Of a stretch of DNA of 64,000 bases, positions 54,611-60,538 are shown piece by piece (the stretch's first letter is position 1; every line of letters starts with the position of its first letter). The stretch comes from an uncultured Fibrobacter sp. Its GTDB lineage: Bacteria > Fibrobacterota > Fibrobacteria > Fibrobacterales > Fibrobacteraceae. Both the position numbers and the translations under genes were made by a program. Where the stretch lies: NCBI GenBank assembly GCA_946183925.1, contig CAMHDS010000003.1:1-64000 (forward strand), given 5' to 3'. The notes beneath the pieces were generated by a model. The model saw only the letters and a list, made by a program, of their open reading frames with translations. It made no database searches and was not told the origin of the DNA.

Positions 54611-55573
54611 CTAGGCGTTTTCCATGAGTTGCTGGATACGGTTCAGGTCGTCCATGGAATAATAGTTAATTACGATGGTTCCCTTGGCTTCGGAACCTGC
54701 GCTGGGGTTGATTGCCACCTTGGTGCCGAAATAGGTTTCCAGCTTGGACTCGAACTGTTTCATGTCGGCACTGAGTTCCGGCTTCGGCTTGGGCGGATTT
54801 GCAGATGCCGCAGGACTTGCTGCAGACTTTTCTTTTTCTCCGGTTTCCTGTTTTTCGTCTTTAGTCGGGTCAATTTCTTCGCCTCTGGAAATTGCCTCGA
54901 TCTGGCGGACGTTCAGGCCTTCGTCGATGATTCTCTTTGCAAGGGCTTCTACGTTGGCAATCTTGTCGCTGCAGAGGGCGCGGGCCGCTCCGGAAGAGAG
55001 CTTGCCTTCTTGGATCCAGTACTGCACCTGATCCGGGAGTTTCAGCAGTCGGAGCGCGTTGGTGATGGCGGAACGGGACTTGCCTACCGCCTTTGCCAGG
55101 TCTTCGTGAGTGTAGTTGTGGTTGTCGATGAGCTGCTGGTAGGACTGCGCCGTCTCGATGGGGTTCAGGTCCACGCGCTGGATATTTTCGATAAGCGCCC
55201 ATTCGGCCATGGCCTTGTCGCCCACGTCGCTGAACACCTGGGCCTTGATGGTCTTGAGGCCTGCAAGCCGGCTTGCGCGGGTACGGCGTTCACCGCTGAT
55301 AATCTGGTAGCGGCCGTTTACGCTCCGCACGTTGATGGGAGTCAGAAGCCCGTGGGTCTTGATAGTCTCGGCCAGTTCCGAAAGTTCGTCGTCGCTGAAA
55401 AACTTGCGGGGCTGGAACGGGTTCGGGTCGATAAGGTCCAGCTGGATTTCTACGACCTGCTGGCCATTGGAAGGTGCGCCCTGGGGGGCGTTGGCAGAAA
55501 AATTCTTATTAGCGTCATGGTCCTTGAGGATATCAGAAAGACCGCGTCCAAGTGCAAAAGATTTCTTTCCCAT
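54611..55573 (-). CDS. parB: chromosome partitioning protein ParB
   Basis: LIDPNPFQPRKFF, YQIISGERRTRASRLAGL, NIQRVDLNPIETAQSYQQLID..THEDLAKAVGKSRSAITNALRLLKLP. Confidence 0.95.
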   Translation of the reverse strand: MGKKSFALGRGLSDILKDHDANKNFSANAPQGAPSNGQQVVEIQLDLIDPNPFQPRKFFSDDELSELAETIKTHGLLTPINVRSVNGRYQIISGERRTRASRLAGLKTIKAQVFSDVGDKAMAEWALIENIQRVDLNPIETAQSYQQLIDNHNYTHEDLAKAVGKSRSAITNALRLLKLPDQVQYWIQEGKLSSGAARALCSDKIANVEALAKRIIDEGLNVRQIEAISRGEEIDPTKDEKQETGEKEKSAASPAASANPPKPKPELSADMKQFESKLETYFGTKVAINPSAGSEAKGTIVINYYSMDDLNRIQQLMENA

Positions 55574-55730: not shown

Positions 55731-56513
55731 CTACTTCCCCTTATTCAGGATTTCCTCGGCGAGTTTCATGTAGGACTGGGAACCGGGACTCCGTACGTCG
55801 TACAGAATGACCGGCTTTCCGTGGGAGGGTGCCTCGCTGAGGCGCACATTACGCGGGATGACCGTCTGGAAAACGGTGTCGGCCAGGTTCTCGCGAACTT
55901 CGTCGGCCACCTGCTTCGAGAGGTTGTTGTTGGCGAACATGGTGAGGAGCGCCCCTTCGATTTTCAGGTTTCCGTTCAGGTTTTTCTGGACTTCGCGGAT
56001 GGTGTTGAACAGCTCCGTCACGCCGTGGAGGGCGTAGTATTCGCACTGGATAGGAATCAGCACGCTCTTTGCGGCGGTGAGCACGTTGATGGTGAGCAGG
56101 TTCAGGCTCGGGGGCGCATCGATGATGATGAATTCGAAGGCCTGGTCCAGAACTTTCATGACACGTTCCAGACGGTGTTCGCGGCTCATGGCGTTCACCA
56201 GTTCGATTTCCATGACGGCAAGGTCCGGCCCCGAAGTGATGATCTTCAAGAAGTCGAGCCTCGTGTTCATGATGGCGGGCTTGATGTTATCGTAGGTGAC
56301 ATTGTCCGGATTTTCGGCCAGTTCCAGCACCTCGTGGATGTCCATCTCCTGGGATTCGTTGTAGCCGAAACCCTGGGACGCGTTCCCCTGGGGGTCCATG
56401 TCGATAAGGAGAGTCTTTTTCTCCAGGGCGGCAAAACTGGCAGCCAGGTTCACGGCGGTAGTGGTCTTGCCCACGCCGCCTTTCTGGTTGCATATCGCTA
56501 TCACTTTACTCAT
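55731..56513 (-). CDS. parA: chromosome partitioning ATPase ParA
   Basis: MSKVIAICNQKGGVGKTTTAVNLAASFA deviant Walker A; IIIDAPPSLNLLTINVL. Confidence 0.95.
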   Translation of the reverse strand: MSKVIAICNQKGGVGKTTTAVNLAASFAALEKKTLLIDMDPQGNASQGFGYNESQEMDIHEVLELAENPDNVTYDNIKPAIMNTRLDFLKIITSGPDLAVMEIELVNAMSREHRLERVMKVLDQAFEFIIIDAPPSLNLLTINVLTAAKSVLIPIQCEYYALHGVTELFNTIREVQKNLNGNLKIEGALLTMFANNNLSKQVADEVRENLADTVFQTVIPRNVRLSEAPSHGKPVILYDVRSPGSQSYMKLAEEILNKGK

Positions 56514-57232
56514 TCGTTACCTCGAGTGACTAAGGCGTAAACTTGTTCTTCGTTAGGTAGTGTATATTTGTGCAGTATAATCGCAGGGTCGCTTTCCAGC
56601 TGGGCTACGTTGTTGTAGCTCTTGAGGGTGAGGAACTTTCCACCCTTCTTGAGGGCGGGCCTCGCGCGTTCCCAGTCGTTTTCGAAAGTGGAAAGGGCCC
56701 GGCAGCTGATAAAGTCCAGGTCGGTTAGGCCGGAGGTCTCGAAACGCTTGCCCACTACGGTCAGGTTCTTGAGACCTAGTTTTTCTTTGGCCATCTGCAT
56801 GAACTGCACACGCATGTTCCGGGGTTCTACGGCATAGAACTGGACTTGGGGCATTACGATGGCAAGGGGGAAAACCGGACAGCCAGCTCCGGCTCCCATG
56901 TCGGCCCATTTGAGTTTTGAGTTCTGAGTTTTGAGTAATGGGTTTTTATATTCATTTTTACCCACAACTGACAACTCATGACTCATTACTAAGTATGGAA
57001 CCAGCGAATCTGCAATGTGCCTGCTCAAAAATTTTTCGGAATCCTTTGCCGAAATCAGGTTGCCGAACTGCTTGGTTTCTACCACCAGGTCGGCATAGTC
57101 GTACAGCTTGCCGAGAGTTTCTCCGGGCAATTCAACACCATTTTCTCTTAGGAATTGGTTCAAAAGGTTCTGCTGTTCGATGTTGTTTCTATAACTCAAA
57201 AGACCCTGATTCGTTATCCCCGCTGGTCCCAT
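56510..57232 (-). CDS. rsmG: 16S rRNA (guanine(527)-N7)-methyltransferase RsmG carrying an in-frame repeat insertion; true start probably downstream of 57232
   Basis: ADMGAGAGCPVFPLAIVMPQVQFYAVEPRNMRVQFMQ and FISCRALSTF; overlaps parA by 4 nt. Confidence 0.85.
   Translation of the reverse strand: MGPAGITNQGLLSYRNNIEQQNLLNQFLRENGVELPGETLGKLYDYADLVVETKQFGNLISAKDSEKFLSRHIADSLVPYLVMSHELSVVGKNEYKNPLLKTQNSKLKWADMGAGAGCPVFPLAIVMPQVQFYAVEPRNMRVQFMQMAKEKLGLKNLTVVGKRFETSGLTDLDFISCRALSTFENDWERARPALKKGGKFLTLKSYNNVAQLESDPAIILHKYTLPNEEQVYALVTRGNE
56909..56993. repeat. AACTCA-type hairpin repeat within rsmG
   Basis: TTTGAGTTTTGAGTTCTGAGTTTTGAGTAATGGG...CCCACAACTGACAACTCATGACTCATTACTAAG; same word family at 55673, 59188, 59761. 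Confidence 0.7.
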
Positions 57233-57269: not shown

Positions 57270-57285
57270 TGCTCCACGTGAAACA
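57270..57285. promoter_or_regulatory. parS-like site TGCTCCACGTGAAACA
   Basis: One mismatch to TGTTCCACGTGAAACA. Confidence 0.7.
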
Positions 57286-57447
57286 TTATATTAGTCAACA
57301 ATTTAGCATTACTAAATCACAATCACAACGAAAAATGGGCCTTGAACCCTTATTTTTTAAAAATATCCGTGAATAAATTTTTGATAAATGTGAATTTTTT
57401 GTGGATAGAGGTAAGGGTCTAGGGTTTAGGATCTAGGGGCTAGCATA

Positions 57448-57463
57448 TGTTTCACGTGAAACG
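57448..57463. promoter_or_regulatory. parS-like site TGTTTCACGTGAAACG
   Basis: One mismatch to the palindrome TGTTTCACGTGAAACA; start of 121-bp repeat copy 1. Confidence 0.8.
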
Positions 57464-57568
57464 TTTGCAAACCGAGGAAACGGCGATAAACTTGTTTATC
57501 GACATTTCCGAGGTGCAGCAAGTTGCGATTGCTTTCTTATTGCCCTACATTCTGGTGCAATCGCCAAC
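57448..57568. repeat. 121-bp parS-bearing palindromic element, copy 1
   Basis: 117/121 identical by eye to 58973-59093. Confidence 0.85.
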
Positions 57569-57596
57569 ACGTTCAAATATTTCTGAGCTTCCGGAT

Positions 57597-57620
57597 GTCA
57601 TCCCGGCGGATGCCGGGATA
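57597..57620. repeat. GTCATCCCGGCGGATGCCGGGATA palindromic repeat
   Basis: Same sequence at 59104-59127; relatives at 57810, 45793 and 15933. Confidence 0.75.
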
Positions 57621-57809
57621 GGCTCAAGGCTGGGGTGACATGCCTTGCATACCTTATAACTAATCTCGCATCTCCGTCCCTGGATCCTTCGCTGTCGCTC
57701 AGGATGACGATGAGACTTCTTGTCCCCATCAAACCCCACGCCCCGAACCTCGCATTCCACATTTCCCCAGATCCTAGCCCCTAGATCCTAGTCTCTAAAA
57801 CTTCAAGCG

Positions 57810-57835
57810 GATCCCCGACCATGTCGGGGATGACA
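57810..57835. repeat. GATCCCCGACCATGTCGGGGATGACA palindromic repeat
   Basis: Read directly. Confidence 0.7.
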
Positions 57836-57876
57836 ACATTTAAGACCCACCCCCGAACCTCGCATTCCACACTTCT

Positions 57877-57926
57877 CTAGATCCTACCCCCTAGATCCTA
57901 GATCCTAACCCCTAACACCTAACACC
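57877..57926. repeat. telomere-like heptad array (CCCCTAGATCCTAGATCCTAACCCCTAACACCTAAC)
   Basis: Read directly; related arrays at 55574-55645, 57411-57443, 57768-57797, 59873-59914. Confidence 0.75.
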
Positions 57927-58141
57927 CGCGTTAGGGACAGTGACCCGTAGGGCCGAGACCCGGCAAAAGTCATGCCGGTGGTTGAACATTTTTTTTGCTG
58001 GGGCTCGGGGAGCGAAGCGAGTATGGCCCGACCCCTCTCCTTCGGGGTGGTCCGTGGTTCGAGGGGGAACGCCCAACACTATATTATGATAGGTGGCGAT
58101 TTTTTTTGCGGACATTTTTATAAGAAATAAAGAAGAGAAGC

Positions 58142-58972
58142 GTGCGAGGGGATAATTCTAAATTGAGATTGTCGTACTTTTGGAGGTTTGAGGTGCAGAA
58201 GTTTTCCCAGAGTTATTATGTGACTGGCCACGATATGGATTTGAGCTACCGGATGGTTCCCATGTCGGCCTTGGCCTATTTCGAGGATTGTTTTGCCCGT
58301 TATGCGGCGAGCAAGTTTCTTGCCGCTTTCGATATCGTGGACAGAGGCTTGTACTGGATTATTTCTGAAATAGATATCCGTTTCGAGGGCGACCTTCCCT
58401 TCTGGTCCGAAAGTTTCCAGGTGGACCTGTGGATTTCGGAAAAGTCCAGAATCAAGATTTTTTGCGACTTTACCATGAGCTATCGCGGAAAGGTTTTTGC
58501 CAGGGGAAACAGTTGCTGGGTGGTGATGGACAAGAACCGTCATCGTCCATATTCCACGGCCCTGCTTGACGGCAAGATGGATGTGATTGAAGAATTGGCT
58601 GTGGGCCCCCATGAAAAGTTCGGATGGAACGATTCTGGAAATGTACTGCATACGCTGACCCATCAGGTGAATATGGGCGACATCGATTTCAACCGTCATG
58701 TGAACAATAGGACTTATTTAAACTTGGCGGTGGCATGTCATTCGGAAACCTTTGGGTTTGACAATACCATCAAGTCCATTAAGGTCCGGTTCATGCAGGA
58801 GTGTTTTATGGGCGATACCCTGGTCTGTACGGAATATGGTCTTGGGGATAACGTTTGCAGTTACAAGTTGGAGAAAGGGGACGCTACGGTCTGTAATATC
58901 ATCCTGGAGTGGGAGGCTTTGGGAGAAAAACAGACCGCTATCGAGGAGTATCCCCTGGCCGTCCGTGAGTAA
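58142..58972 (+). CDS. acyl-ACP thioesterase-like hotdog protein
   Basis: Double-hotdog length; MGDIDFNRHVNNRTYLNLAV is the typical DxNxHVNN motif. Confidence 0.85.
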   Translation: MRGDNSKLRLSYFWRFEVQKFSQSYYVTGHDMDLSYRMVPMSALAYFEDCFARYAASKFLAAFDIVDRGLYWIISEIDIRFEGDLPFWSESFQVDLWISEKSRIKIFCDFTMSYRGKVFARGNSCWVVMDKNRHRPYSTALLDGKMDVIEELAVGPHEKFGWNDSGNVLHTLTHQVNMGDIDFNRHVNNRTYLNLAVACHSETFGFDNTIKSIKVRFMQECFMGDTLVCTEYGLGDNVCSYKLEKGDATVCNIILEWEALGEKQTAIEEYPLAVRE

Positions 58973-58988
58973 TGTTTCACGTGAAACG
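58973..58988. promoter_or_regulatory. parS-like site TGTTTCACGTGAAACG
   Basis: Abuts the thioesterase stop codon; start of 121-bp repeat copy 2. Confidence 0.8.
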
Positions 58989-59093
58989 TTTGCAAACCGA
59001 GGAAACGGCGATAAATTTATTTATCGACATTTCCGAGGTGCAGCAAGTTGCGATTGTTTCCTTATTGCCCTACATTCTGGTGCAATCGCCAAC
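58973..59093. repeat. 121-bp parS-bearing palindromic element, copy 2
   Basis: See copy 1. Confidence 0.85.
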
Positions 59094-59103
59094 GTCCGCA
59101 GAA

Positions 59104-59127
59104 TGTCATCCCGGCGGATGCCGGGAT
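59104..59127. repeat. GTCATCCCGGCGGATGCCGGGATA palindromic repeat
   Basis: Same as 57597-57620. Confidence 0.75.
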
Positions 59128-59761: not shown

Positions 59762-59872
59762 TTGTGAGTTATCAGTAGTCAGTTATCAGTATATAATTTG
59801 GCGCCAAAGGCGCGAATATAAGAACTCACAACTCATAACTGAAAACTCATTACTAATCTTTCGCCCCACACA

Positions 59873-59914
59873 CCCTACCCCCTAAATCCTAACCCCTAAC
59901 CCCTAACCCCTAAA
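59873..59914. repeat. telomere-like heptads CCCCTAAATCCTAACCCCTAACCCCTAACCCCTAA
   Basis: Read directly. Confidence 0.8.
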
Positions 59915-59921
59915 CAAAACT

Positions 59922-60522: not shown

Positions 60523-60538
60523 TGTTTCACGTGAAACA
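60523..60538. promoter_or_regulatory. parS site TGTTTCACGTGAAACA
   Basis: Perfect palindrome and match to the widely conserved parS consensus. Confidence 0.88.

Follow-up and report, generated by a model that had tools for sequence, protein, structure and literature searches.

Fibrobacter is a main cellulose degrader of the rumen. Near the partition genes of an uncultured Fibrobacter sp., two long repeats each begin with a parS site, which raises the question of what such repeats are and whether they carry parS with them. The window analysed here is the whole 64,000-nucleotide stretch containing them, and the host genome is a 2.76-Mb draft that is 81% complete. The repeats adjoin parB-parA-rsmG, and the named relatives of the ParB gene in the window are Fibrobacter MAGs. 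The locus is like the chromosomal parABS systems of the parAB-rsmG type in that ParB, ParA and RsmG are accompanied by a cluster of predicted chromosomal parS sites of the standard TGTTTCACGTGAAACA motif near parAB; the window contains ten matches to TGTTTCACGTGAAACG at three mismatches or fewer, against 0.93 expected. We know of no parABS system of this type in which hairpin repeats are docked on parS. The features of the region are as follows.

54611–55573, minus strand: ParB (ParB_N, HTH_ParB and ParB_C; Pfam), found in 73 of 80 genomes of the genus
55731–56513, minus strand: ParA (Pfam AAA_31/CbiA)
56510–57232, minus strand: RsmG (GidB; Pfam GidB), a marker of the origin region
57270–57285, no strand: degenerate parS with two mismatches, without a unit
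57448–57463, no strand: parS of copy 1, exact TGTTTCACGTGAAACG
57459–57529, plus strand: hairpin unit (A-unit) of copy 1 (covariance model 74 bits, E 9e-17; DNA fold)
57522–57568, plus strand: second palindrome (P4) of copy 1, GTTGCGATTG...CAATCGCCAAC (a separate module in relatives; DNA fold)
57569–57576, plus strand: possible truncated start of a further unit after copy 1, ACGTTCAA, which reads ACGCACAA in relatives (sequence comparison)
58142–58972, plus strand: acyl-ACP thioesterase ORF, between the two copies (Pfam)
58973–58988, no strand: parS of copy 2, exact TGTTTCACGTGAAACG
58984–59054, plus strand: hairpin unit of copy 2, stem variant AAATTTATTT (covariance model 70 bits, E 1e-15)
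59047–59093, plus strand: second palindrome of copy 2 (sequence comparison, DNA fold)
59094–59103, plus strand: truncated start of a further unit, GTCCGCAGAA (10-nt unit-start prefix)
60523–60538, no strand: perfect parS without a unit, unoccupied in close relatives too

The original prediction described colinear 121-bp repeats at 57448–57568 and 58973–59093, each opening with parS, and both statements are confirmed. The copies match at 117 of 121 positions, and identity reaches just 1 bp further on the left side. The four differences between copy 1 and copy 2 are 57491 C/59016 T, 57494 G/59019 A, 57532 C/59057 T and 57535 T/59060 C; the first two together turn a C-G pair into a T-A pair, as had been proposed for the stem. 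Copy 2 does abut a stop codon, that of the thioesterase ORF, which ends at 58972, immediately before parS. The 121 bp is a real repeat but not a single unit. It is a composite of parS, the hairpin unit and the second palindrome, modules that are found separately in relatives, and the first AAAC of the A-unit in copy 1 is the right arm of parS. GTCATCCCGGCGGATGCCGGGAT, which was said to follow both copies, is present at 57597 and 59105 but lies outside the 121-bp identity; at 57597–57619 and 59105–59127 it looks like a separate intergenic repeat. Further intergenic short repeats, resembling CTAGGATCTAGG and CCCTAACCCCTAA, occur at 57410–57440, 57765–57930 and 59860–59915.

A BLASTN comparison of the repeat with its own genome returned only these two copies, while a structure-aware model found about 20 more diverged ones. 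Across 80 genomes of the genus, blastn detected the repeat or relatives of it in 28, the host genome included, with matches that split into query 8–86 (parS and hairpin) and query 67–132 (second palindrome), each found separately. Iterative nhmmer over 78 stretches fetched from genus genomes, mostly from upstream of ParB, yielded a large family of diverged copies, and a covariance model was built from 40 different units. This model gives 17 matches in the host genome at E<1e-3 and 22 at E<=10, all but two of the copies lying away from parS. It has matches in 80 of 80 genus genomes, with 5 to at least 62 per genome, and in 13 genomes from five other genera of the same family, Fibrobacteraceae; none is further away among the matches listed. 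Unit density is 0.30/kb in ParB loci against about 0.006/kb over this genome, a rough comparison in which some loci were chosen for their units and genome copy numbers differ. The two repeats thus belong to a large Fibrobacter family of DNA repeats that form hairpins. The family is apparently undescribed, and searches of the open-access literature for Fibrobacter repeats found nothing. A simple local duplication, for which only two copies and no stem covariation had been named as the signs, is rejected: copies are many and their stems covary, the relatives carry different units at both sites, and the family is genus-wide.

The family unit is an imperfect hairpin of ~71 bp followed by a second, sequence-variable palindrome that ends in AAC. 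It comprises an AAC foot, an outer stem, a CGAG/CGAG motif, a conserved G-T/C-A mismatch step, an inner stem with a short loop, and a GTWG foot; the consensus can be written AAAC - outer stem - (A)GGCGAG - G.. - GC - inner stem - short loop (often CTTG) - AT - .. - CCGAGCC - outer stem - GTWG.

How these units sit on parS was surveyed in 75 ParB loci (1.0 Mb) holding 298 units by covariance model. The parS core ends exactly at unit position 4 in 172 of the 272 units examined and never at another offset, a count over non-independent units (descent is shared among relatives and among the copies within a locus) and over genomes that are mostly MAGs, whose arrays are possibly misassembled. At most one mismatch in the 14 positions of the parS core is seen for 167 of the docked units; the other 100 units mostly come after a previous unit's palindrome ending in AAC. 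Because a unit starts either at the end of parS or after an AAC-ended palindrome, arrays start with an AAC-ended palindrome (parS or P4) and continue as unit, P4, unit, P4, and such tandem arrays build outward from parS on either side. Units flank 108 of 358 parS-like sites on one side and 32 on both, and the occupied fraction drops with parS quality (89/188 perfect sites, 46/122 with one mismatch, 5/48 with two). No orientation bias relative to ParB is seen (135 units on plus, 133 on minus). The right ends of arrays are ragged, and truncated unit starts are frequent: 20 of 110 array ends carry at least 10 nt of unit start, compared with 1.2% at random AAC positions. Neither hairpin repeats docked on parS nor parS as an insertion target was found in the open-access literature; to our knowledge, there is no case of dispersed palindromes docked base-exactly on chromosomal parS across a genus.

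The suggestion that the element spreads parS sites is contradicted by two observations, orthologous parS sites without units and dispersed copies away from the origin without parS, which rule out parS as cargo and make it a docking site. Six sets of orthologous loci have the same flank and parS with and without units (L076 versus L097, L088 and L069; L098 versus L082; L105 versus L117; L072 versus L074; L074 versus L080; L121 versus L122). Dispersed copies in this and other genomes are not preceded by parS, with the few exceptions of L247, L248 and L254, which look like origin-region contigs. The empty sites have no clear target-site duplication beyond AAC, and they could be losses.

The two parS sites of the window were further compared between the host genome and five genomes whose ParB is 95–97% identical to its own. 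Across these six, the sites bear different units or different orders of units, with GTTTGC-type, CCGCAGGG-type and ACGCACAAGG-type units permuted between parS sites and species; in one relative (G007) the second site has only about 25 bp from parS to the common right flank. Copy 2 shares its TTTA stem variant with the second site of two relatives (G015 and G048), and copy 1 its CTTG variant with site-1 copies of relatives. The compensatory pair is thus inherited and distinguishes two lineages of a single unit type. Of 79 unit clusters, 21 include units that directly follow parS as well as units that follow P4.

Away from the origin, the copies overlap stop codons (e.g. ...KDW*, ...MIND*), lie between genes, or are inserted in frame in RHS-type proteins. 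In three genomes (L185, L234, L237) the in-frame units sit at a single point, with ENFTGK before the unit and DDETxLNYFGAR after it. Dispersed copies, occupied and empty orthologous sites, swapped units and these in-frame insertions uphold the mobile part of the original prediction. The earlier reading thus stands as to a structured and mobile element and falls as to the spreading of parS.

The family is dispersed, docked exactly at the parS end near oriC, polymorphic at fixed parS between related species, and its unit types are shuffled between sites. Our favoured explanation, which we consider probable, is that the repeats are mobile palindromic DNA cassettes of the Fibrobacteraceae, REP/RPE-like, that accumulate on parS and are exchanged between parS sites. 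Cassettes would join where a palindrome ends in AAC, and spread in the origin region may proceed by exchange or template switching between parS sites, which share 14–16 bp, and between AAC-ended palindromes. Such exchange would produce an exact left junction at parS, ragged and truncated right ends, and no orientation bias, with no resident transposase. Against this explanation, none of Y1_Tnp, IS110 and integron integrase tracks the family, the empty sites show no clear target-site duplication beyond AAC and could be losses, and outer stems differ by location, which is not what a simple cut-and-paste element would produce. The cassettes may mainly be selfish, accumulating in a segregation region that is permissive and prone to recombination, and they might have side effects on ParB spreading. 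More tentatively, parS might be a preferred landing site of this mobile palindromic DNA, perhaps guided by ParB or a parS cruciform, with the centromere as a recombination hub for cassette gain, loss and swap.

Site-specific transposition, in which an as yet unnamed transposase inserts the cassette directly at parS and P4 palindromes, is a possible but not a favoured alternative. It would fit the exact left junction at an AAC-ended palindrome in 172 cases and the existence of dispersed and in-gene insertions, and there are known IS families whose insertions lie beside repeated palindromes. The ragged right ends speak against it, as do the dispersed copies, which no parS-like palindrome precedes. 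In a survey of 61 genomes, all with units, Y1_Tnp is present in 21, IS110 in 8, and an integron integrase above the TIGR02249 cut-off in none. Presence of these genes does not track the units, which leaves RAYT, IS110 and integron integrase unsupported as mobilisers. No units lie beside the two Y1_Tnp genes of this genome, no autonomous partner transposon was found for the family, and the balanced orientation of the units offers none of the lagging-strand bias of ssDNA transposition. A plasmid or phage origin gave no match. The host genome has a second, unrelated palindrome family: in L134 (G000:C159), at about 1090–1200 and 2640–2818, a Y1/RAYT-like gene lies amid its own tandem palindromes GAAGGTCCAGAGTGTGGACCTTC.

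Selection could alternatively have placed the hairpins beside parS as a functional accessory of the centromere that bounds or shapes ParB spreading as a roadblock, loading or condensin site. Docking is exact and occurs on either side of parS, a unit is attached to 89 of the 188 perfect parS cores in ParB loci, and the association is genus-wide and extends to at least one other genus of the same family (L254). Even so, units are missing from about half of the perfect parS sites, an orthologous site may be empty, the majority of copies in this genome are away from parS, and the number, type and side of the units vary freely, which makes this explanation unlikely.

Dispersed bacterial palindromes are common; here, small repetitive DNA seems to use the bacterial centromere itself as a docking site. 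This raises the questions of whether the ParB–parS complex attracts recombination and whether hairpins beside the ParB loading site alter ParB sliding. The unit types could serve as fast markers of origin recombination in Fibrobacter.

The structural part of the original prediction is borne out by strong covariation across hundreds of copies. Double substitutions occur in 15 of 16 modelled pairs, and paired cells amount to 95.8%, a share that falls to 64.5% when columns are shuffled and to no more than 52% when partners are slid; a MAFFT alignment, which had no fitting to the model, gives a similar picture. Of 114 distinct units, 101 retain the conserved GC/AT step with its G-T and its C-A mismatch. 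Both copies fold more stably than shuffled sequences, with z of -2.4 and -3.3 as RNA, and -3.6 and -3.3 as DNA. Covariation and a stable fold would also be expected of a structured RNA, a small RNA or UTR element, encoded beside parS. RNA helices tolerate G-U. Outside the conserved step, G-T pairs make up 12 of 1625 standard pairs (0.7%) in the units. In nine tRNAs from these loci, which form a small control, they make up 12 of 198 (6.1%; Fisher p 2e-6). The near absence of G-T pairs suggests selection or copying as DNA palindromes, so that the units probably act as DNA, as hairpin or cruciform, and not as RNA. The lack of orientation preference and the units inside coding frames likewise disfavour an RNA, and the repeats have no Rfam match at gathering scores, matches elsewhere being at chance level (E 0.66 and 0.86); an RNA is accordingly very improbable. 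A last reading, in which the repeat would be a short gene, duplicated and encoding a small protein that starts in parS (MFHVKRLQTEE...), hardly merits belief. In its favour, both copies have an ORF from an ATG overlapping parS, and two of the four differences are synonymous in it. The other two are not, and a coding repeat is rejected by frames that differ between unit types: other types vary in length or run early into a stop (AAA CGT TAG), with base pairing kept.

Two variations on the hairpin were also seen. Units of different types contain a nested sequence of ~50 bp (about CCTCATAGAGGATAACTCAACTACGAAACTAAAGTTTCAAGTTTCATATAT), inserted each time at one position in the 3' side of the inner stem (L076:11200-11321, L078:8535-8656, L106:11544-11665, L069:3587-3708, L080:11336-11457, L082:6967-7088, L098:7447-7568, L072:4056-4177, L124:3359-3480 and L247:1664-1785). 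In the origin region of L057, L058, L059 and L060, a small hairpin AACATGTATAACATGTTGGTTTCACGATCACATAG stands in place of the first half of some array units.

Mobile palindromic cassettes of this kind invite comparison with several known systems. Like REP, BIME and REPIN elements of the GTAG class, they are short, dispersed, imperfect palindromes, often clustered, in multiple copies (about 20 here, 5 to at least 62 per genus genome). Many Fibrobacter units also end in GTAG or GTTG, a foot that resembles a tag. They differ from REP/REPIN in the ~71-bp unit with its second palindrome, the lack of a linked RAYT gene, and docking on parS. The foot varies (GTAG, GTTG or GTCG, and others away from the origin) where REP elements have GTAG or CGTC at one end; origin-region units mostly end in GTWG, and dispersed copies often end otherwise. 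Fibrobacter is unmentioned in a survey of such palindromes (PMC3733652). Rickettsia palindromic elements (RPE) are similar in lying in and between genes, in frame inside proteins, with no known transposase (PMC10969869, PMC3733652), and their insertions in genes are read through in frame (PMC10969869), the same behaviour as that of the Fibrobacter units whose insertion keeps the frame of RHS-type proteins. The likeness is one of behaviour; the Fibrobacter family has another host, a shorter hairpin unit, tandem arrays on parS, and a peptide that is not conserved between unit types. MITEs are likewise non-autonomous, dispersed, about 100 bp long and equipped with internal inverted repeats; in the Fibrobacter family, no terminal inverted repeats in common with a found transposon and no clear target-site duplication beyond AAC were seen. 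Integron attC arrays share the AAC...GTT feet, imperfect hairpin units and cassette-like shuffling. In contrast to the strict GTT R' and AAC R'' of attC, the Fibrobacter foot GTWG is seen as GTA, GTT or GTC, and the 61 genomes hold no integron integrase above cut-off.

A further context of units recurs as GGTTGATGTTAGAGGCG ... unit ... ATTAATGTACCTAATAT, with the unit just upstream of different accessory genes (L216, L217, L222, L225, L226, L228, L229, L231, L232, L250 and L251). By eye, these genes are AlbA_2/Schlafen-like and ORF6N-like, as if they were cassettes with a common 5' region.
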